64,000 bases of DNA, taken from the NCBI GenBank assembly GCA_004123355.1, contig SCHM01000004.1, positions 5,979,017-6,043,016 of the forward strand. The letters run 5' to 3'. A program made the translations under genes and the position numbers. The DNA is from Amphirosellinia nigrospora (taxonomy: Eukaryota; Ascomycota; Sordariomycetes; Xylariales; Xylariaceae). Under the pieces are notes generated by a model that ran no database searches, had not been told where the DNA came from, and saw only the letters and a program-made list of their open reading frames with translations. Below, one piece after another: positions 8,641 to 46,622 of this stretch; position 1 is the first letter of the stretch, and the number at the start of each line of letters is the position of its first letter.

Positions 8641-8819
8641 TGTGCAAGGGAGATGTGCGGGCCAAATAATCGATTTCGGCTGGGGCAGGGTATTTCGTAG
8701 CGCCAAACACCAACTACAAGGGGCTAGGTTAGTGGCGGCACCCCACACCTGAGATCTATCGCGGCTGTTCCCGACGACCCACTTATACAAAGTCCTTGCC
8801 TTCCATACACTTAGTCCTT

Positions 8820-8824
8820 TAATA
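8820..8824. repeat. Left target duplication of element E (taata)
   Basis: Pairs with taaca at 42,971-42,975; one C/T difference, the kind RIP makes. Together they bracket the whole AT-rich block. Confidence 0.65.
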
Positions 8825-10780
8825 TGCTGAAGTAATACTTGTTACATTACGCACCAACTAGTGATCTAGCTATACATCACTAAATAGATCACTAGGTTGC
8901 TTACTTAATATATGTAGCAGTACGCCGGGGCTTAACTATAGCTAGTGCTCCTATTAAGTACTTTATACTAGAAATGCTTTAATTAAGCTTAGCAGTAATA
9001 TATAAATAGATTAATATATATATATTACTAAATTTAATAATTAAAAGTTTTATTATAATTTTTATATTTATTAAAAAATAAAGCTATAAAAATACGTACT
9101 AAAAAATTATTATTATATTTATATTAATTATTATAATTTTTAATTTGTTAAAATTTTTTTATAAAAATAAAACTTTATAGCGTTTATAATTTTAAAATTT
9201 TTTAAAAATATTTATAACTAAAATAAACGCAATTTTTTTAGCTTATAAACTAAACATATTAAATATATTTAATTTTTTATATTTATAAATAAATTTAACG
9301 ATTATTATATTAATAAATTTAATAATAAATAAATAAACTTTATATATTAATATTTAATAATGCTATAATATTGTTTTAAAATAATATAATATTTACCGAA
9401 ATAAAATTATTAAACTTTTTAAATAAATATAAAAAATAATAAATTCGAACTATAAATTAACTTATATAAAAGCTTATTAAACTTTTAATTAATAATAATA
9501 ATTTAAAAAAGTTTAATAAAATAATAAACTAAATTTTTAAATATAAATATTAAAACAAATATAAAACGTTTATTAATTTTATAGTAAAAAAACCTATTAA
9601 AAACTTTATTAAATAAACTAATAAATAACTAAATAAAATTATTAAAACAAATATTAAAAAATTAATATTATTAAATTGTTTAAGCTTATAATTAATTTAA
9701 AAATTTTTTTATATAATATTAATTTATTTTAAGCTATATTATTAAAAAAACTTATAATAATAAAATTTTAAATAATATTTTAAATTATTAATAATAATTA
9801 TTAAACTTTAATATAAAACTTTTATATTAAATATAATATAAATATTTATAAAAATCGTTAAAAAAAAACTTTTATTATTTATAAAACTAATAAATAAAAA
9901 AATATAAAATTATTTAGCTTATTTTAATAAAAATTAACTTAAATAAACTTATTAAAATAAAAAATATATTTTTAAATAGCTTAAAACTAACTAAATAGCT
10001 AACGTAATAATTTTAAAAAAACTCTTTAGGTATTTTTATAAAATGTTTTAAAATAAATATATAAACTAAAACTAAAAAAAAACCTTAATATAACGGATTA
10101 TATAATTTATTATAAAAAATATTTAATTATAAATTATTAGTTTATTTTTTAAAGTTTTATTTTAAAAATTTTAAAACTAATATTTATTTTAAATATATTT
10201 ATTTATATAAAATAACTACTAAAAATAACGTTAAAAAATAATAAAATATACTAAAAACTAATAAAAAAAAACACGTTAAATTTAATAATTAATTTATAAA
10301 TTAATATAAAAATTAATTCGTATAACTATTAATAATATATTATAAGCTTTTTATAATTAATAAAAAGCTCGCTAAATTATATATATTACGTAATTACGCT
10401 ATAATAAACTTTAAGTTTAATATATATATTTTAATTAAATAAATTATTTTTTAACTTTAAAAATATTAACTTAAAAAATATAATATTAGCTAATAATAAT
10501 ATAATTAAAATATATAGCTATAAAAAATCGATATTAAAACATAAAAACTAAAAAAACTTATAGTTTATAAGCTTTATAATATAACTTTTTACTTTAATAT
10601 AACTATTAACTTTATTTTATTATAAATTTTTAATTATAAAAACATTTATTAAAAAATAAACTTAATTTAGATCTTTTAAAATACTAATAAAAAGCTTTTA
10701 TACTCGTTAACTTAAATATATAGATAATTTGTTATAAAGACCTCTTAATACGCCTAATAAAGCACGCCTTTTATACCCGA

Positions 10781-21388: not shown

Positions 21389-22804
21389 ACCCCCCTTGTT
21401 AAAGTGTAGTAGTTAATTTAGCTAATAAAAATATATTTAAAATATTTAATAATAAATAATATTATTAAAAAATAATTAAAAAGTATTAAGCTTTTTAAAT
21501 AAAGTAATAAAAAAATAAATAAGTTTTTTAAAAAGTTTAAATCGATCGATTTTAAAAAAAAAAAAACCGAAGCGTAATTTATTAAAAAAAAGTTTAAAAG
21601 TAAAAAAAAAAAAAAATTACTTTTATTTTAAATTTAAACCTAAATTTATTAAATTTATTATTATTATTATTAAATTTAAAAAAATTTAATAATATTTATA
21701 TTAAATATAAATATTTATTTATAAAAAAATTTAAAAAGTTTTATTTATAAATAAAGTTATAAATTTATAAGCTTTAATAGCTAAGCTTTATTACTAGCTA
21801 TAGCACCCGTAATTTTTACTTATAATAATTATTACTTATAATAAATATATAACTATTATTTGCAATAAATATAGTTATAATAAATAAAAGCAAGTATTAA
21901 TAAAATATAGCTATTTTATGCGAATATTTAAGCAGCTATTTATACTATAAATTTAAACTTTTTTTTTTTTTTATTTTATTTATAAATTTTATATATAATA
22001 TATTATATATACTAAAGCTTTATTTTTTAAATATATAAAGCGTAACTATTTATAAATTATTTAAAATATTATAAAATATTAAAACTATTTTTATAATATT
22101 TTTTAATTAAACTAAACGATTAATTTAACCTAAAAATATTAAAATATTTTTTAAAAAAAAACTAAATAATAAATATATATAACTATATATATTAAAACTT
22201 TTATTAATATTTCGGACTTATTTATTTCAAATATTTAAAATAATAAACTTTTTATAATAAAACTTTATGCTACGCGTAGGTAAGGGGACCTAGTGCCCCT
22301 AGGGCACTGGGGTCACCCTGTGGCTGTACGTGGCTGTGACCAGTGGCTGTGGCACACCCCACCCAGGGGTGGGTCACGTGGCCACCCCACCTACGTGGGG
22401 TAGGTCACCTGACTACTGGCTATAGCCCACGTATATAAGGTGGGTGTGGTGGCCGCGGGCTACTACTACTACCTTTATAACACCACTAGACTTATAGATA
22501 CTATAATATATACACTCTTACCCCAGGCTACTTGTATTAAATAGTGCGGTAAGCTAGGTCCATCGCACGGCGACGTAAAATAAACGCGAGCAGCGCCCCC
22601 TTTTTAAGTCTTTTTTTCGAAGCGGCAAATACGCCGTTGTTTAATTACTATCGACGCTCCGGATACACCGTTCTTAATACTTTCGCCGGAGCCAATCACG
22701 TTCTCCTAGCATTTAAACGCCGTACGAAGCTACATTTATACCGTTTTTAATACTCTTATTTACAGCCGAATATGCTTTAAAAGCAACGCTGTTAACGCTC
22801 CGTT

Positions 22805-22923
22805 TAGCTATATACGACCGATCTGGAATTTTGCGTATAAGCTAAACGCCGCCGACGTTCTATTCATTTAAGCCTACGTTAACTAGCTATATACGACCGA
22901 TCCGGTATTTTGCATACAAGCTA
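22805..22923. repeat. Duplicated 40-bp word inside element F
   Basis: TAGCTATATACGACCGAT... at 22,805-22,844 recurs at 22,884-22,923 with a few changes, 79 bp apart. Non-coding. Confidence 0.7.
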
Positions 22924-22941
22924 GACTGTAGGATCTAAAAT

Positions 22942-23250
22942 ATAGACCTCGAAACGCAGACTTTGACCTATGTAGACCTCGAAACGTAGACCTTGACTTT
23001 TGTAGACCTCGAAACGTAGTAGACCTAGATATATAGACCTAGATACGCAGACCTACGCAAACTCCGACCTACGTAGACCTCAACCTGCGTCAACTTGCGT
23101 AGATTTATATAGACCTACACTTACACAAACCCCTATAAATCTACAGACCCTTTTATAGATACCCTACAGGTCTACAAACCCTTTATAGGTTTATAGACCC
23201 CTGTAGATCTATAGACCCCCTATAGACCCCCGTAGACCTACGTAGACCTG
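22942..23250. repeat. TAGACCT-based degenerate tandem array inside element F
   Basis: About 15 occurrences of the heptamer TAGACC(T/C) or CAGACC(T/C). The first two units are 30 bp long (TAGACCTCGAAACG plus spacer) and then break down into shorter, C-rich steps. No coding potential was seen. A short GGCTAG/GGGCTA array follows at about 23,290-23,340. Confidence 0.7.
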
Positions 23251-24644
23251 GGTGGAGGAAAGTGGTATTGGCAATATAGGTGGATTTGTGGCTAGTGCTT
23301 GTGGCTAGGGTGTGTGGCTAGGCTAGGGCTAGGCTAGGGCTATTGAGGTTAATAGGATTTTTGTATGTGTGTGGCATTTGTTACGCGTAGGTAAGGGACC
23401 CAGTGCCCCTAGGGCACTGGGGTCACCCTGTGGCTGTACGTGGCTGTGACCAGTGGCTGTGGCACACCCCACCCAGGGGTGGGTCACGTGGCCACCCCAC
23501 CTACGTGGGGTAGGTCACCTGACCACTGGCTACAGCCCACGTATATAAGGTGGGTGTGGTGGCCGCGGGCCACCACTACTACTTTTACAACACCACTAGA
23601 CTTATAGATACCATAATATATATACTCCTACCCTAGGCTACTTATGTTACTTTAATAAATAATAAAAAATATATTTATTTTAGCTTTTTTAACTATAAAA
23701 AACTATAATAATAAGCTATAAAACTAATTATTTTTAATTAATTTAATATAATAGTTTTATAATATTATTAATAACTATATATTTAAAAAATAAAAATTTA
23801 ATATAAACGTTATTAGTTTTAATTAAATAGTTTAATATTTAATTAATAATTATATAAAATTATAAATAAAAAACGCTAAGCTTAATTTTTATTTTAAACT
23901 AATAATATATTATAATAAAATAATTTAGTTTAGCTTTAATAAAAATATAAACTAAACTAATATAAATAATATATATAAAAACTTTATTATTATTTTTAAA
24001 AAATAAAAATATATATTTTTTAATAATAATTTATTATTATTTTATTATTAATTTATATATATTTACTAAAAAATTAAAAAATAAAATAAAGTTTTATTTA
24101 ACTAAATAAAAATAAAATAAAATTATTATTTTTTATAATAAAATATATATTATATTAATATATATTATTAATATTTTTAATTTATAATTAAAAATAATTT
24201 TAATTAATAATAAACTAATTAATAAACTATTAATTAATTATTAAATAAACTATAAAAATAATTAAATAATATAACTACGCTTAAAATAACTTAAATATTT
24301 CGAACTAATAAATAATTAATTTATTAAATTATTATAAAATAACTTTTATTTTATTAAACAATAAAAAAATAATTAATATATAATTAAAATATTAATATTT
24401 ATTTTTATAATAATATAATTAAAAATAAACTTAAATTTAAAATATAAATTCGAACTATATAAAATTATTTAAATTTAACGCTAATTAGTTTTATAATAAT
24501 ATAGTTAAAAAATTAATATTAAAACTTATATTAAAAACTATATAGCTAATAATTTTTTTTTATTTTTTATTTAATTATTTTAATATATTTATTAATTTAA
24601 AAACTATTTTAAAATATTTTAAAAAAATCTATATTAATATTAAC

Positions 24645-34700: not shown

Positions 34701-37700
34701 TATAAAAATAAAAAAACTTAATAATATAAAAAATTAAAAAAAAAATATAATATTATTTTATAATATTTTAATTAATAAATAATATAATATAATTAATTTT
34801 ATATAAATAAAATTATATTAAATAAGTTTTATTAAAATATATAATAAATTAAATATTTTTATAAAATTATTATTAATCGAATAAATTTTTAAAAAAAACT
34901 ATAAAAATATAAGCATAAAAATTTATTATTAATAAAAAAAAATAATAAACTAAAAAATTTATAAAAATTAAAAAACAAATTAATTATATTTTATAAATAT
35001 TTAATAGTTTTTAATTTTTTATATTTAAAATATATTTTATTAAAAAAATATATTATAAAATATTTATTATATATTTAAATAAAAAAAATATATAAACTTA
35101 TTATTAAACGTTATTAATAGTTTAAACTAAATAAAAATTATAATTATTATATAATAAACTATATAAAATATAAACTTATTAAAATATTTAAAAATAAAAT
35201 TTTTAATAAATTTATATTTTTTTTAATATTTAAATATATAACGTTATTTTATTATTAATTTTAAATAAATATTTAAAAATAAATATAAATATAATAATAT
35301 ATTAATTATAATAAACTATTTAAATAAATAAATATAAATTATATTTTATATTATAAAAATAATTATAAAAATATTATTAAAATATATTATAAAAAACTTT
35401 TTTAAATTTTTAAAATATTTATAATTATAATATTAAATTATAAATTTTAATTTATTTTTATTTTTATAAATAAACTATATAAACTAATAAATATAAATAT
35501 ACGTTAATTATTATAAAATATTATAAAACTATAAATAAATAAAAATTATAAATAAATATATTAATTAAAAATTATAATTATATATAAATTATTATTAAAA
35601 TAACTAGTTTAAATATATATTTATTATAAATTACGTTTAAACGTTAATTTTTTATATTTTAAAAAAATTATTATTTTATAAAATTAAAATAAATTTTTTA
35701 ATATTATTTAATTTTAATTAAAAAATTAAACTATAAATAAAAAACTATAAAAGCTTTTTAAAAAAAAAAAAAATAATTCGAACAAATATATAAAAAAATA
35801 AAAAAAATAATATAATTTATTAAATTAACTAAAAAAAACTTATAATATATTTAAAAATATATAATTAATTAAACTAATAAAAATTAATATAAACTTAATT
35901 TTAATATAAAAAACTATATATTAATTTTAAAAAAAAAATAGTTTTAAAAAATAAATTATTTATTAAATAAGCTAAATTTTTTTATAATATAATAAAAGTT
36001 TAAAATATATAAAAAAAATAAAAATATTTTTATATTAAATATTTTTATAATTTAAAAAATATTTAACTAGTATTATATAAACTAATTATAAAAATATTTA
36101 AATAATTTATTATTAAATTAAAAAATAAAAATTTAAAAAAAAAATAATAAAACTTAAAAGTTAAAAAAAATTTATAATTAAAAAAATATAAACTTTTTAG
36201 TTTTATTATTAAAAATTATAATATTAAATAAATTAAAAAATTAAAATCTTAATAATATATAATATTTATAAAAAATTTTAAAAATAACGTAAAAATACTA
36301 AAAATTTTTATAATATAAACTTTAATTTAATTAAACTTTTAATAAAATTATAAATATAACTAAATATAACGTAAAATAATAATTTTAATAAACTATATTT
36401 AAATAATAATAAAACTATAACGTAAAAAAAAAAATAACGCGAAAAAAAAACGCTTAAATATTATTAAATAAAAAAAACTTTAAATAACGTATAAAAAAAC
36501 TAATAATAATTAATAATATAAAAGCTTTATAAAAAGTTATATTAATAAAAACCTAAAGCGATTTTTTTTTCGCTAGAAAATAGTTACGATTTTAACCCTA
36601 GTTAAATTATTTTTTTTTTCAAAAAAAAGTAGTTATAAATTTATAAGCTTTAATAGCTATATTTTATTACTAACTATAGCACTTATAATTTTATTTATAA
36701 TAACTGCTATTTATAATAAATATAATATAATAAATAAAAGTAAGCATTAATAATAAATATAGCTATTTTACGCGAATATTTAAACAGTTATTTATAACGT
36801 AAATTTAAACTTTTTTTTTTTATTTTATTTATAGATTTATATATATAATTATATATACTAAAGCTTTGTTTTTTCGAGTATATAAAGCGTAACTTTTATT
36901 AACTAAAACTTAAAAAAAATAACTAAATTTGCTTTTTTTAAAAAATATATTAAATTACATACTAATTAATAATTTAGCTATATATTACTAAATAAATTAC
37001 TAGGTTATTGATTTAATATATATAATAGTACGCTAAGGCTTAACTAATAACTAGTGTTCTCGTTAAGTATTTTATACTAAAAATACTTTAATTAAACTTA
37101 ATAATAATATATAAATAAATTAATATATATATTATTAAATTTAATAATATTAAGTTAAAAATCATTATAAATATTATAAAAGCATAAGCATTTATTATAT
37201 ATATAAACAAGTTATTTATTTATTTTATTATATAGTTAAATAGTTAAATAGTACGCTTGTATATTTTTTATTTTAGTAAGTTATAAGCTTAAAGATTTTT
37301 TTATTAAAATAGCTAGCTAAATATTTTATTTATAATTTTAAATTAACTAATTAAAAATATAAGCTTAAGCTTAAATATATATTAAACCGAAAATAATAAA
37401 ATATTAAATATAATATAAATAAATATAAATTCCGCGCTAAAAAAAAAATTATTTTTATTATTTTTTTATTTTATAATATTAATTAAAAATAATTACAATA
37501 AAAACTTAATTAATATATAATAAAAAAATAAAAAATAAATAATTTTATTTATTATTATTTAAAAATTATTTGCTATTAATAATTTTTTATAGTTAGTAAA
37601 AAAAATTTAATTATAGTAAAAATATAATAATTTAAAAAAAAAACGAAAAAAAATTTGTTTATATAAATTTATTTAAAACAATTAACGATTATTAACTCGA

Positions 37701-40700
37701 TTTTAATAACGTAAATATATTATTTACGTTTAATAGTTAAAAAATATTTAGTTTTTAAGTTAAAATATTAAAATTAACCGCTATAAATTTTAATAAAAAT
37801 TAATAAAAAATTAGTTTTTTTAATAGTTTAAGTTTTAAAAAATAAATTAATATTTTTAAAGATTTATAGCTATTAAAATTAGATTTTTTATAACTATTAA
37901 TTTTCCGAATTTATAGTAATTTTTTTATTATTTAGTTTATATATTACTAATATATTTATTAAACGAAAAAACGGCGATTTAATTATAATTATTATAAAGT
38001 AATATAGTAAATATTAATATTATCGAAATATTTAAAATTAATATAAGCGTTACGAAAATTAAATTTTTTATAAAACTAAAAAGTTAAAAAAACTATTATA
38101 AATAAATTTTAATATAATAATTATATTAAAAGTTTATAACGTTTATAAATTTATTCCGGGCAAATTATAAAAAAAAAAAAGTAAATATTTTAGTATTAAA
38201 AATAAAATAAGAAATTTTTTAACGAAAAAAAGTACTATTAATAAAAAATAGTTTAAATTATATATTAAACTTATATTTTATATACGTACGAATAATCTTT
38301 AAAATATTTAATTAAATAGATAAAAAGTTTAATAAAAAAGTAGTTATTTTTTTTTAAAATAAATAACTTATTAAAATTAAACAATTATTAAAAATTTTTT
38401 AATAGCGCGCGAACTAATAAATAAAATTAAAATAATCTAAAAAAACTATATTAAAATTAAACTAAAATATATATTTTTTAATAATTATTTTATAGTTTAT
38501 TTTATTTACGGTTTTAAAAAAGAATTTAAAGCTTAAGTTTAAGTTTTTTAAAATATAATAAAAGCTAAAATATTATAATTAATTAACGTAGTTTAAACCG
38601 TAAAAATTAAAAAGGTTTATATAAAGTAATTATATTAATTATTTAAGCTTAACGTTATAGCTATAATAATTAAGACTAATATTATAAAAAAAAAAAAAAA
38701 ATTAATAATTATTTTATTTATAAATAAAAAATTTATTTTTATAAAAAAACTTAAATATTTATATTATAAAAAAATTAAATATATAAAGTTAAAATGCTAA
38801 AATTTATATTTAAAGTTATAAAAAAAGCAAGCAAAAAAAAAAAAATATATAAAAAAAATAGCAAATATAAAAAAAAAAACTTTATTAATAATATATTTAA
38901 AATTAAAAATAATAATAGCAATTTAGTAAATATTATTTAAATTATTAATTTAAACTATTATAAATATTATTATAAAAAACTTAAATTTTTATTTTATTTA
39001 ATAATAATATTATTATTTATATAGCTTTAATATTTTAATTTAAAAGATTTTAAACTTATTATTTAATTATTTTTTATTATAGTTAAATTTAATAGCTTTT
39101 TAAAAATTTATAAAATATTGTTTTTTATAGCAAGTTTAAATATTAAATTTAAACTACGCTTAATATATTATATAAATAAAAATAAGCTAATTAATTATAA
39201 AAAGCTTATTTTAAAAAAAATTATTATTATAAACGTTAAAAAAATAAAATATTTATAATAAAAAAAAAATCTAATTAAAAAATATATTATAAAAAATAAT
39301 TATATTAAAATTATTTTTACTAACGTTTTATATATATTAAAATTAAAAGTTAATTTTATTTTAGTTATTTAATTTTTCGATAAAAAAGTTTTAATATTTT
39401 TAAAAAAACAATATTATATTTGATTTTTTTTTTAAAAAATATTATAATCTAAATAATATAAATTTAAGAATTTATTTATATTAAAATAACTTAAATAGCG
39501 TTATTAGTTTAATAATATATATAATAAGTTTATTTATAAAGCTATAATACGAACGAATAAACTATTTTAGCGAAAAATTACTATTAACGTTAAAAAAAAT
39601 CGTATAAAAAATAAATAACGTTTAAAGTTATTATATTTACGAACTTTATATTTTTAAACAAATATGTAAAAAATATATATAAAAAAAACTACCCGAAAAA
39701 AAATTTTAAAAAAATATATTTATTAATATTTACGGACTTTTATATTAAAAGCTATAAAAAAAAATATTAGTTTATTTAAATCGATATATATAATAAGCTA
39801 AGTGTTTATTAAAGCTTATAAAAAATAAAATTAATATATATATATATTAGCAAATTTATTAATAATTTAGCTAATTTTAAACTATAAAGGCAAAAATACT
39901 ATATTATATACGTAAATAAAACAAGCGAATTTATTTTAAAAATACTAATAAATAAACTATATAAAAAAAAAAAATATTTAAATAGCGCTAAAAAATATAA
40001 AAATAATAATATAGCTAAAAGTTTTAATATTATAATATATAAAAAATTTTATTTATAATAATAAAAATATTATTAACTTAAAATATTAGCTTAAAGTTAT
40101 AATAACTAAATTATTTATATAATAAAAGCTTATATAATATATTTAACGTTATATTTTTTAAAAAAGTTTACGGTTAAAAATTTAATATTTTTTATATTAA
40201 AATATTTAATATTAAATTTAATATTTATTTTTAAGCACTAAATAAAAAAACTAGATTTTAAGTTAATATTAAAGATTTTAGTTAAATATAATAGTAATTT
40301 TATTTATAAATAATAATTTAATAATAAAATTATTAAAATTATAAAAAAAATATATATTTCGATATTAAATAAAACGTTATAATAATTAATAAAATTTTAC
40401 GATTATTTAATATATTATAAATAGTTTTTATTAATATTTAAACGGATAATACGGCTAATAAAGTTATAAAAATAAAAAACTTATATTTTTATTAATAAAA
40501 TAAAAATATTAAAATATTATTATTTTTAATTAAAAATTATAATAAATTTAATTATAAACTTTTAATTATATTTTTAAATAAAGTTATATTATTTATTAAA
40601 AAACTATTAAACTTCGGGATTATTAATAAAGTTTTTAATAAACTTAAACTTAAATATTTATTTAAAAATTTTTAGCTTTTATTTTTTAACTTAGTTTAAA

Positions 40701-42824
40701 TACTATATATTATATTAATTTTAATAGCTATATTAAAGTTATAATAATAAAATTAAACTTTTTATAGTAAAAAAAATATTAAAAAACTTAAATAAAAAAA
40801 AATAATTATAAAAATAAAAATTAAATTTAAATTTTTAGTTAAAAATAAAATTTAAACATTAATATAATTAACTAAAAATATATATATATTAAAAAAGAAA
40901 TAATATATAAACTTAAACGTAGCTTTAATAATAAAATTATTCGCTATAAAACGAAATAAATAGTTTAAAAATTTAAATAAATCGAAAGCGTTAATTATTT
41001 TAAAACGTTCGTTTTAGTTATTAAGCTAATAAGCTATAAAATTTTATTTGTTATAATAGCGGCTTAAATTTAAAAATAAAATAAATAAACGTAAAAATAG
41101 CGTTTTTTATAAAAAAATAAAAAAAAATATTTATATCGAATAATTATATAAATTTAAAAATAATATAAAACAAGTTTATAAGCTAAAAAAAGTTTATATA
41201 GTTTAAAATAAGCTTTAAAAGTTTAGTTTAAATATTATTTAAGTTTTTATTATATAAATTATAAACTAATTAATATTAATTATAATATATTTATAAATAA
41301 TAAAATAAGAATTTTTATTATAGTTTATATTAACGATTTATTTATAATAAAAAAAATAAACTAAAAATTAATAATATTAAAGTAGCTTTAAATAAAAAAT
41401 TTCAAATAATAAATTTAAGCTTATATTAATATTATTTAAATATTTATATATAATATAATAAAGCAAATAAAACTATATATTTTAATTAATAAAATATATC
41501 GATAAAATATTTATATATAAATTAAAAAACTATAAACTAATAAATATTTTTATAATAATAAAGCTATAAAAAACTAAGCTAAAATAAATATATTTAAAAA
41601 TAAAAAAAATATAATATTAATTTAGCGTAAAATTATTAATATATTTAATAATAAAAATTCGGCTAAATATTATATACGTAATTATAGTTAGTTATTATGT
41701 TTTAAACTTTATATTTATTTATAAAATAATAATTAAACGAATTTTTAAGTATTTATTAAATACGAAGAAATTATTTTTTTTTTAAAAATTATTATAGTTT
41801 TTAATAAGCTAAACTAAATAAACTAAAAAAAGATTTAAATATATAAAAATTAACCTTAAAATATATTTTAATTTTAGTAATAATATAGTTAGCTAATTAT
41901 TAAAATAAATAATATAATATTTTAATATAAAGCTAAATATTAAAATAATACTAATATAATTAAAAAATAATATAGCTTTTATAATTATATAACGAATTAA
42001 ATACTAGTTATAAAAAAATAAAAAAATAATAAATGCTAAAAAAGCTTTATATAATAGTTATTTATAGCAATAATTAAAGTTTTATTATATTTATAAAAAA
42101 TTTAACGTAATATAAAAATAAAATATAAATATATATTAATATATATTTATTTATAAATAAATTAAGTAAAAAAAATATAGCTAGAATAAGTTTATATAAA
42201 AATAATATAATAAACGGATTAATAAAACTATTTTTTAAAAATATGTTCGAAAAATTTAAAAAAATATTAAAATTAAAAATAATTTTTAGTAATTAAGTTT
42301 AGCGATTTTTATAATTTAATAATTTAAAAGTATATAAAAAGAACTTTAAAAAAAAGAAAATATTTTAAAAATTTTATAAAAGCTTATTAAACGAAAATAA
42401 ATTATATAAATTTAAAAATTAAATTATAAAAAAAACGTTATTAAAATTATATAACGTAAGAACTTAATATATATAATTTTAATAATTTTATAATTATTTA
42501 ATCTAATAATTATAAAGCTATTGTTTTTTTTATTATTTAAAGTAAAAAAAAAAATTACGTTAAATATTAAAAAACTACGTTTTATATTTAATAGTAACGT
42601 TAATAAAAATAAATAATAAAGTTTTAAAATATTTAATTAATAAAATAAATAATTTAATTATAATTAATATAGCTAATTAATATAAAAATTATAAAAGCTA
42701 TAAATATAAAACTATAAGAGTTTTTTATTTTTATAAGTTTATAATTTATAATATAAATCTTCGGTTAATTAGTTAATAAAAATAAATAGATTATTTAAAC
42801 CTATAATATTTTTTTAAGCAAGAG

Positions 42825-42970
42825 TATTAAAATAATATTAAGTTAAGGAGTTATTATAAGTATTGTATAAGGGTATAAGTATCTATTGTGTATATAAACA
42901 GGTTATCCCACCTACTCTATTATATAGTTAAGTAGCTGAATAGTACGCTCGTATACCTTCCATTTTAGCA
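42825..42970 (+). repeat. Right LTR of element E, supplies the present stop of the Clr5-ankyrin gene
   Basis: This copy keeps many C and G that its partner (37,152-37,278) has lost. It ends TTTTAGCA and is followed by the duplication taaca. Its last 43 bp, read on the minus strand, are now the final codons and stop of the neighbouring gene. Confidence 0.75.
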
Positions 42971-45900
42971 TAACAGTCTGTGTCGTGGTCCTCCGTCTCA
43001 CTACCACTCTCAACCTCACTATCGTCCTCGACCTCGCTGTCATCATTGCCGTCGTCACTTAGCTCATAGAAAGTGTATTTGCTTTCGATGTCTTCAGTTT
43101 CGAGTAAGCTGTCATCCTCATTCGCCCAACCCCGTGACTCTTTCAGTAAGTTCGCGGCGACATCATCGCCTCGTCTTATTGCCATCTTGACGGCTCTAAT
43201 AAGTTGTCGACGCCAACGACCACTCGTCTCAGCCCCATTAGTTAGTAAAAGTTGCAGCATGTCGAGTCTTCCCCACTCCGCAGCTCCTTCGAGAGCAGTC
43301 CTCCCATTCTGTTCTGCTGGAAGTGCATTAATTTCGGCACCGAGCTCGAGTAAGTACTTGGCTATTCCGAGATAGCCTTTTGATGCAGCTATCTGTAATG
43401 CTGTTACCCCCGTCAGATGCAGGTGGGAGTTGATATTCGCACCAGCTTCCACCAGGCAGCCGACCATTTCGATATTGCCAGATTCCACCGCCAGCTGAAG
43501 AGGAGAACGGCCAAACCGCACGGATCTTTCGTGCTCGTTGATGTCTACTCCGGCTCTCAGGAGAAGTGCAACTAGCTCTCTATGGTGGTGCCCGACAGCA
43601 CCGATTAAAGGGCTTCCGCATGTCAATTTCCTGCAGTCGTGCAGGTCGTCCTTCCTATACTGCTGTTCATGGTCTAGTAAGAATTGAAAGAACGGGACGT
43701 TGTTCCAGTCAGATGCCACCAGCCAGGTAAGCATATCAGGCTGAAAGCCATGTTGTAGAAGCTCGGAACAAGCCTCTATTGCTGTGCCATCAAATTCCTT
43801 TGCTGCCAAGAAAGCCAGTGGGCTTCCCCAGAGATTCCCTTGGTGCCCTGAGGGCAGAATATGGCAAACGTTGGAATGTTTGAAATCCCCAGTCACAATA
43901 AAGCCAAATACTCGTGTCCTCTCTTAACGTCACTCGCCCAATCTTGCAAGTTGGCGGGTGCTCAAGTAGACTTCGCAGGAGACCAAGGTCTCCCAACTCT
44001 GCAGCCATACCGAGAGCGGTCACCTCCAAAAAATGAGTTAATGGTTTATTGCGACGATTGAATAAAAGCCGCTCGACTATTGAGTGTTGGGTTGTGATCG
44101 CAGCGCACTGCGCGCCTGCGTCATAAATTCCCGGGTCGACCTCGAACAATTGCGTCAGGATAGGAAGGGACTGTGATTCAATGGCTGCTTCAAGCGCGGT
44201 TAGTCCTGATCGATCGGTATCTAACAATGTTGCCCCGTATGTAAGCAAAAGATTTACAAAATTGCAATCCCCGAGACGAATTGCCAAAATGACCTCTCCG
44301 CCTACTAAGCCTATACCGTAGTGCAGAAGCTGTTCCACAATACTATATATCGGCCTAAGGTCCTTGTGTTCGGCTTGTGAAGTTTTTGCTCGTCGCAGCG
44401 CTTGCAATAGTGCACTATCTATGCGCCCTTTCTTTTCATTTAGATCCACCCCAGAAGACAAAGCTAGTCTGAGCAAGCCAATACAGGAGTTGGACACAGC
44501 GAACGCGACCTCGCGTTCAGTTGGCTTAACGCCAGCATGGATCAGCATGGTTATACAAGACACAGCTCTTTCTGGAACCGGGATACCCCCGGAGTTTTGG
44601 TAAATCATGTCAATAGGTTTGGGATTGGAACCCAAACGATAGTCCGAAAAAATTTGGGACGAAATTCTTCGTTCTTTTTGTTCAGTGTAGTCAAACCTGG
44701 CCACGTCCTTAACATCTACGCCCTTTGAGATTAAGAATTCGACGATATCCTTATGGTGCCTATAACAAGCAGCGTGGAGAGGAGAGAACGTCGGTCGGAA
44801 ATTTGAAACATAGTTGCCGTATACAGGGAAGAGTAGTTCGCAAATCCTCAGGTCGCCTCCATATGCGGCCGCATGCAACGGCGTGAAACCGTATTTGTTC
44901 GCGATGGGGATTCCAGACTTGTCGTACAAGAGTAAGACAGTATCATAATTTCCAGCAGCGGCAGCCGAAATCAGCACATCGGCTGTGATAAAAGAAGAAA
45001 TAAGAAAAGACGGGTTGCCAGATGCCAGAAGATTGAGAATATATCGCGTTTGCAACAAATCCGTAGCTGCGGCGACGCTGAGGGCAGTCGCTTTGTACAC
45101 CAAGCCAGATGAACAATCTGATTCCGCACTAAGGTCGGCTCCATGATGCAGTATCAAATTTATCAGTCTCCTGTCCCTTCTTTCCCTTATGGCGACATGC
45201 AGCGCCTCAGTCATATTGACAGACACTCCATGTTTCATCAGAAGATTGACCATGCGCAAGACCGCACTATCACTCCATTCCGAACTCAAGGCATGCTCCA
45301 ATATCGTTCTAGGCTTGCGATAGGTGGCGAATGGCGGGGACGTATTGTTAGCATCAGCGCCAGCTTCTAAAAGCTTCTCCGCCAGCTCTAGCTTGGCTTC
45401 TTCATTTGCAGCAGATAAGCTCGAAGTAGAAGATTTGCACCGACGCCAAAATGTTTCGCCAGGAATTATTGGGCTCTGTCCCATAGTGAGGAGCCATTTG
45501 AGTACGGCTATCGTCTCTTCGTCGTCAACGAGTCCATTGCCATGGTCCAGCATGTGGATTGCGGCATAAAGTAGGTTCTCCATGAATCCGTCAATAGTCC
45601 GGCTATTCAGGCTTTTTAGGTTGATGTTGATTTCCAAAAGACCACTTGTTTTAAGTATGGTCACTGTTGTCTGCCACTGATCATCGTTCCAAAACTCGTG
45701 TAGGTCGTTGGAGAACCTATGAATAACCATTAATAGCAATTCGTAAACATGCTCTTCTCGTGATCCGTTGAGTAATTGGTGCGCACGTTGCAGATGTTCT
45801 TGTGGATAGGATTCGGGCATTAACGATCCGATGACAGCAGCTAATCCTGAAATCCCGATTTGAGAGGTCTTGGTTAAAGGTTGACTCTCGCGGGCGAAAG

Positions 45901-46622
45901 ATTTAGGAATAATAGTGCTGGGTTGGACTGCCTGATCTTCCAAGATCTTCCCCATATAGGGAGTGAGGACGCCTATAATGTTAAATATTAGTTTCTTATA
46001 TCCAGCAACATTTGCAAACTGAAAACTTACTTTGGCGGTCTTGCACCAGGAACCTCAACCAAGGTAAAGTTTCTGGCCACTCGAATTCCATCGAGAAGGG
46101 CTGCGGAGTACAAACTGAAACTTGAGTGTCAACTAGAATCGTAGATGGTGACGAACTTCGTTCTATATTATACAGTTAGTAAACTACAGGGGCCAACGTG
46201 AATGTTAACTGACGCAAGGCGGGCTGAGAAAATATGCTCCTATCACGATAACGGTCTGTTTCCTTATCAATCGTGTCTGGTTTCATCCGCTTGCTGCACA
46301 ATAGCACTTCGCCATCTTTACCCTCTCTCTTCCGCTTGGTGAGGCATTGGTCGATGGCGATCCATGTTTTCTTGTCGATATTCTTTCGAAACCCCCATTT
46401 CTTCAACTTGTACTCTAGTTGACTGGGTCTATATTGTGTCAATGACTTGTCATCATGAAACAATGTATATCCATATAACACTCACGTGACAGTAAGGCCA
46501 AGATTTTTCAACCTGCTTACGAGTTCGCCAAGTGGCATCTCGTCCATGAGGTACAAGCGTCTAACCAAAGCTTTGTGACGAAGCCATTGCTCCTCACTTG
46601 GCTTAGGCAATGATAGACTCAT
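42928..46622 (-). CDS. Clr5-domain ankyrin-repeat protein, five exons, C-terminus altered by element E
   Basis: Exons: 46622-46486, 46428-46214, 46162-46031, 45972-43912, 43847-42928. They sum to 3,465 nt with all phases closing (1,154 aa). Residues 1-90 look like a fungal Clr5 domain: EEQWLRHKALVRRLYL near the start, then QLEYKLKKWGFRKNIDKKTW. Ankyrin repeats fill the rest, clearest at GFTPLHAAAYGGDLRICELL and GVTALQIAASKGYLGIAKYL. The tail is acidic (DDGNDDSEVEDD). Clr5 domains are found in putative fungal regulators, and ankyrin arrays bind proteins; the partner is unknown. The ATG at 46622 is chosen because it begins the Clr5 homology. A minus-strand TATAAAA near 46,760 fits. The last 14 residues and the stop come from the LTR of element E. 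Reading of the exons is confident. Confidence 0.88.

Follow-up and report, generated by a model that had tools for sequence, protein, structure and literature searches.

Locus and gene model

The window, by which we mean the whole stretch of 64,000 nucleotides analysed here, corresponds to C6:5979017-6043016 in a 48.1-Mb genome of 11 contigs. Immediately to the right of a long AT-rich block it holds a predicted gene on the minus strand, whose product combines an N-terminal Clr5 domain (PF14420, E 1.1e-10, 41.9 bits against a cutoff of 22.3) with ankyrin repeats (PF12796, E 4e-62). Our model of this Clr5-ankyrin gene has five exons between 46622 and 42928 and a predicted length of 1,154 aa:

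46486-46622, minus strand: predicted exon 1, with the start ATG at 46622-46620 and the Clr5 domain PF14420, followed by an intron at 46485-46429 (GTGAGT..ATATAG)
46214-46428, minus strand: predicted exon 2 (gene model)
46031-46162, minus strand: predicted exon 3 (gene model)
43912-45972, minus strand: predicted exon 4, with the ankyrin repeats (gene model and Pfam)
42928-43847, minus strand: predicted exon 5, host-coded down to 42971 and LTR-coded over 42970-42928 (sequence and gene model)

The four predicted introns (46485-46429, 46213-46163, 46030-45973 and 43911-43848) were picked by canonical signals, a choice that is not unique, and 770 intron combinations keep the frame open for longer than 1,000 codons.

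In the AT-rich block, GC is 3-13% in most 1-kb steps of 9,001-43,000 but rises to 20% at 10-11 kb and to 35-37% at 22-24 kb. RIP indices are strong in the 9-43 kb block, and we infer that RIP is strong in this genome. The GC island inside the block, at 22001-24000, carries a 255-bp direct repeat (22285-22539 and 23395-23649, 95%) and is possibly a younger, less mutated insertion.

Element E and its ends

Next to the gene lies an LTR retrotransposon, here called element E, which spans 8825-42970 with about 5.8 kb of sequence of its own. It has two direct LTRs with defined ends in TG and CA, one at 42825-42970 and the other in two parts (8825-8839 and 37152-37278) on either side of a nested element A. 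All comparisons among fungal sequences were made inside this one genome, with other E copies and with a paralogue of the gene. The features at and between the two ends are as follows:

8819: base beside the target in the empty site, giving TAA on the gene strand (sequence)
8820-8824: left target copy of E, TAATA (four of five bases; sequence)
8825-8839, plus strand: first 15 bp of the 5' LTR of E, TGCTGAAGTAATACT (sequence and other copies)
8840-37146, plus strand: element A in the 5' LTR of E, with LTRs at about 8840-9039 and 36948-37146 and flanks ATACT (8835-8839) and ATATT (37147-37151) (extent and flanks from sequence)
37152-37278, plus strand: remainder of the 5' LTR of E beyond the nested insertion (sequence and alignment)
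37279-42824, plus strand: interior of E at roughly 9% GC, opening with a primer-binding site that is mutated (AGTTATAAGCTTAA against GGTTATGAGCCCGG; sequence)
42825-42970, plus strand: 3' LTR of E, 146 bp, with RIP-type change fading towards the gene (alignment to the solo copy L027)
42971-42975: right target copy of E, TAACA, which is TGTTA on the gene strand (sequence)
42928-42972, minus strand: C-terminal tail of the predicted protein, Tyr plus 13 residues (YAKMEGIRAYYSAT) and TAA (sequence, model and LTR copies)

The right end was searched in the genome with 42900-43300, and 40 of 63 candidates were scored. Among the 39 matches listed other than the window itself, 21 end exactly at 42970; the end falls at query positions 69-74 in 32 of the matches, at 66 in six and at 78 in one. 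The LTR closes with TTTTAGCA in 24 of 31 other copies (seven differ), and the flanks past this end vary by site, save in four copies that are 5' LTRs and continue into the primer-binding site. At the opposite end, TGCTGAAGTAATACT forms the start in 17 of the 21 other copies whose 5' end is readable. A solo copy on C10, L027, shows the whole LTR: it starts with TGCTGAAGTAATACT and closes with TTTTAGCA (TG and CA ends), measures 146 bp and is flanked on both sides by identical 5-bp repeats.

Target duplications were checked at 31 other sites. These comprise 17 solo copies in which both ends are present, four 5' LTRs, the three 3' partners L006, L007 and L008, and seven sites that stand outside the test (L002-L005, L038, L044 and L090). 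The solo copies have a 5-bp duplication that is exact in 14 of 17, has one mismatch in two and shows no match in one. Three of the four 5' LTRs can be matched to a 3' partner flanked by the same five bases (L034/L008 with TTGTC, L041/L007 with ACGAA at a distance of about 30 kb, and L043/L006 with GCTGT), and for the fourth, L033, no such partner was found among the copies examined. A short target duplication is thus a feature of the family. An earlier note on this DNA had taken TGTTA for the duplicated target; the copies elsewhere in the genome bear out the 5-bp type, while the duplication in the window proves inexact, with four of five bases shared. The mismatch between TAATA on the left and TAACA on the right is a C to T change before A, which is of the RIP type.

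The left boundary is more intricate. Positions 8825-8839 are exactly TGCTGAAGTAATACT, and after these 15 bp the 5' LTR of E is broken by a nested insertion of 28 kb; a different LTR family starts at 8840, for which 40 of 449 candidates were scored in the genome search. The 5' LTR of E restarts at 37152, past the second LTR of A and ATATT, a near-copy of ATACT. With TGCTGAAGTAATACT standing before 8840 and the LTR restarting at 37152, we place A inside the 5' LTR of E and take E to run from 8825 to 42970, a pairing that rests on 15 LTR bp, a 4-of-5 target and the LTR restart. Further nested material is presumably present within A. Position 8840 (TGTTAC...) was also considered as the left end of E and was rejected, since it starts another LTR family and its flank mismatches the target at 42971.

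As for the class of the element, the 5' LTR is followed by GGTTATGAGCCCG(G) in L033 and L043 and by mutated forms of it in L034 and L041. This string is complementary to CCGGGCTCATAACC, the anticodon arm of a tRNA-Met gene that this genome carries, so that the other E copies have a primer-binding site for an internal initiator-tRNA fragment; an exact initiator-tRNA string used as query had no match, and a shorter string matched. A primer-binding site of this kind marks Copia elements, and together with the 5-bp duplications it points to E as a putative Copia-type element primed by an initiator-tRNA fragment. Translated in its three forward frames, with X for each stop, 37277-42824 (DNA of 9% GC) matched 0 Pfam families, and with no coding domain recognised in the mutated copy the superfamily of E is an indirect assignment. 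In L033 on C9, past the LTR end at 1523, the 5' LTR and primer-binding site abut a stretch, GATTAGCTCAGTGGGTTGAGCG, that looks tRNA-like by eye. ARAGORN found no tRNA in it, and the junction is possibly a priming or template-switch product.

The C-terminal tail and the probable ancestral stop codon

Across the host/LTR junction at 42970/42971 (marked by a slash), the gene strand reads ...GAC TGT TA/T GCT AAA ATG GAA GGT ATA CGA GCG TAC TAT TCA GCT ACT TAA, with the stop TAA at 42930-42928. The Tyr codon of the tail is made up of two host bases and one LTR base, and the terminal codons and the stop of the predicted protein are element sequence. The earlier note had described the last host codons as GAC-TGT-TA running into the LTR, and the insertion as turning the stop into TAT, so that Tyr and 13 LTR-encoded residues are added before a TAA in the LTR; sequence and frame are exactly so. 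Its statement that the other 3.4 kb of coding sequence is intact holds for the model with four predicted introns, whose host part has 1,140 open codons, or 3,420 bp. That nothing but the 3' UTR was lost, as the note also held, goes beyond what sequence can show.

The same note had fixed beforehand a point on which the reading could fail, namely that the base after TGTTA in the empty site should be A. This is what the left flank gives: 8819 is T, and on the gene strand the empty site reads GAC TGT TAA, with a protein that would end in ...ETEDHDTDC*. Even if 8819 had itself undergone a RIP-type change, the gene strand would earlier have carried G, giving TAG, which is also a stop.

The stop within the LTR recurs in most of the copies read. 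When read in the same way, 26 of the 31 other E copies have a stop at the same codon (TGA in 17 and TAA in 9), so that E very probably carried its own stop, TGA or TAA, and in eight of the 31 the peptide is identical to YAKMEGIRAYYSAT. Five of the 31 deviate, with an early stop in L007 and L043 and a frame that runs on in L008, L034 and L091. The other two antisense frames of the L027 LTR stop after 1 or 19 codons.

Taken together, we consider it very likely from the sequence that LTR retrotransposon E hit the stop codon of the Clr5-ankyrin gene, rewriting its predicted C-terminus. This was the central claim of the earlier note, and it is upheld by copies in the same genome, which give the LTR ends, the 5-bp duplication and the origin of the tail. 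The ancestral gene would have ended in GAC-TGT-TAA, with the 5-bp target of E extending over the stop codon's first two bases. The gene strand would then meet the 3' end of E in antisense and pass through 13 more sense codons to a stop, so that the insertion would have changed TAA to TAT and supplied a stop of its own. The lesion reached no further than the last codon and so left the host frame open. RIP of E, with A and probably others inserting later, would account for the 34-kb AT-rich block. The most likely outcome would be a protein with a nearly neutral predicted tail of 14 residues, unless the adjoining block silences the gene, and we propose that the 3' end of the mRNA would fall within the LTR, on its AT-rich antisense strand.

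Alternative readings

The most serious alternative concerns expression and is compatible with this insertion history: the gene could be silenced, or be a pseudogene in waiting, beside the presumably heterochromatic AT-rich block, in which case there would be no stable protein and the tail would exist on paper only. Heterochromatin forms at AT-rich RIP blocks of this kind, and the low GC and strong RIP indices over most of 9-43 kb speak for such a fate. On the other hand, the frame is open across all 1,140 host codons, and the coding sequence has ordinary GC and RIP indices, except that (CA+TG)/(AC+GT) drops to 0.83 over the final 200 bp. We regard silencing as a real possibility, albeit less likely than not.

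Much less probable, in our view, is that the ancestral frame ran on and E truncated the gene, with the TAA at 8819 arising by chance or the left flank not being the original neighbour. About half of random bases make a stop after an in-frame TA; against this reading, the frame of the empty site meets a stop straight away, and the left flank fits a simple insertion with 15 of 15 LTR bases and four of five target bases. The closest paralogue that we found, on C5 (36% and 40% identity over the two longest matched stretches), can be read either way. It has an acidic tail that is longer, with 115 residues beyond the last aligned motif against 54 here, as truncation would have it, and its end is not alignable; yet it likewise closes with Cys and a stop (...DWFEKYVVC, then TGA), and this shared ending supports the ancestral stop weakly and is suggestive only. 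Between the gene and this paralogue, the DNA surrounding the stops shows no significant similarity (as good in 522 of 5,000 shuffles), nor does the downstream DNA alone (3,694 of 5,000), and homology of their 3' flanks was set aside as unsupported by the shuffles.

Other E copies show that truncation is conceivable for this element. Frames of at least 100 open codons enter the LTR in five of 16 loci examined (L004, L007, L008, L025 and L034), and two of these look like insertions in mid-gene, with 215 (L004) and 214 (L008) open host codons entering the LTR end. Given such open frames, E probably hits genes, and the window case may lie at the mild end of the range. At C1:1836214-1843870, a long E copy with L008 and L034 as its LTRs adjoins the 214-codon frame, probably interrupting it; the predicted product of this frame resembles a decarboxylase-type enzyme. 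The usual stop has been lost from the LTR-coded tail of this copy.

Insertion into the stop codon remains our preferred reading for the window, and it raises the question of whether E integrates preferentially at gene ends, with its LTR tips as ready-made and nearly harmless terminators. The idea derives from the antisense L027 LTR, in which a host frame would meet a stop after 1, 14 or 19 codons according to its phase, and from the position of L027 itself, one base past the stop of a 487-codon open frame with the TAA within the target duplication. This frame has no Met and only sub-threshold Pfam matches, so it may be an exon or no gene at all. A RIP-mutated relative of it that lacks the LTR (L085, C9:1038187-1038705) provides a natural empty site with a clean 5-bp target. 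With the window excluded, one of 16 other solo sites (target with at most one mismatch) has on its left a host frame of 100 codons or more that ends within 10 nt, and the same test on the right gave none of 31 other sites; the background for a frame end within 7 nt is 0.0094 for frames of at least 100 codons and 0.0005 for those of at least 450. The window itself was chosen for its stop-codon feature, and the case for a stop-codon preference of E is weak; a general preference for gene ends strikes us as quite improbable. In their distribution, 20 of 42 matches to the LTR end of E fall on C9, C10 and C11 (1.33, 1.30 and 0.25 Mb), about 6% of the genome, among matches with at most 3 mismatches, which favours little-mutated copies. 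These three contigs could be accessory chromosomes on which RIP has acted less.

Finally, the tail has kept its sequence within a heavily mutated element. The interior of E has TA/AT of 1.22, (CA+TG)/(AC+GT) of 0.13 and 9% GC, and E is a RIP-mutated repeat, with C-to-T and G-to-A changes against L027 and high TpA. Counting RIP-type changes as C/G sites turned T/A relative to L027, the 3' LTR in the window has 0/11, 2/8, 1/11, 6/12 and 7/12 in successive 25-bp steps from the host edge. One could suppose that selection kept a useful tail free of RIP mutations, given 0/11 changed sites in the last 25 bp and 7/12 at 100-125 bp, but seven other mutated 3' LTRs (L002-L008) fade alike (pooled, 4/77 at 0-25 bp, three of the four being in L007 and one in L004, and 48/83 at 100-125 bp), the gradient is reversed in the 5' LTRs L034, L041 and L043, which adjoin host DNA at the opposite end, and the remainder of E's own 5' LTR, with no host DNA beside it, has 5/10 sites changed at 0-25 bp, all of which makes selection scarcely credible and led us to reject it. 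The preservation of the tail looks like an edge effect, and the fade of RIP-type change over the last ~75 bases at the edge suggests that LTR tails can outlast RIP without selection.

Comparison with known systems

Transposable-element exonisation can supply the last codons and the stop of genes in animals, usually because a gene is newly spliced into an element that lies in an intron or downstream. The likeness to the Clr5-ankyrin gene is that a mobile element gives the last codons and the stop, here of a predicted protein; the difference is that E would have inserted directly into the stop codon. Another relative of the case is the Ty1 insertion at HAP1, in which host residues at the insertion are reportedly replaced by Ty1-coded ones; the original study is that of Gaisne et al. 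1999. E resembles Ty1/Copia elements in its TG..CA LTRs, its 5-bp target duplication and its primer-binding site against the anticodon arm of tRNA-Met. Passages in three papers describe Ty1 at the 3' end of the HAP1 coding region in S. cerevisiae S288c as reducing function (PMC5978988), HAP1 function in S288c as partly compromised by Ty1 (PMC7397035), and the effect of the insertion on expression as broad (PMC9634822). In both cases an LTR retrotransposon occupies the final stretch of a coding sequence in a fungus; in HAP1, however, the coding region was hit and function is impaired, whereas in the Clr5-ankyrin gene it would be the stop codon that was hit, with zero host residues lost. E in the stop codon is a tidy example of an already known kind of event, and its value lies in being a clean case in which mobile-element sequence appears to have rewritten a stop codon while doing minimal damage, in a fungus with heavily mutated repeats.
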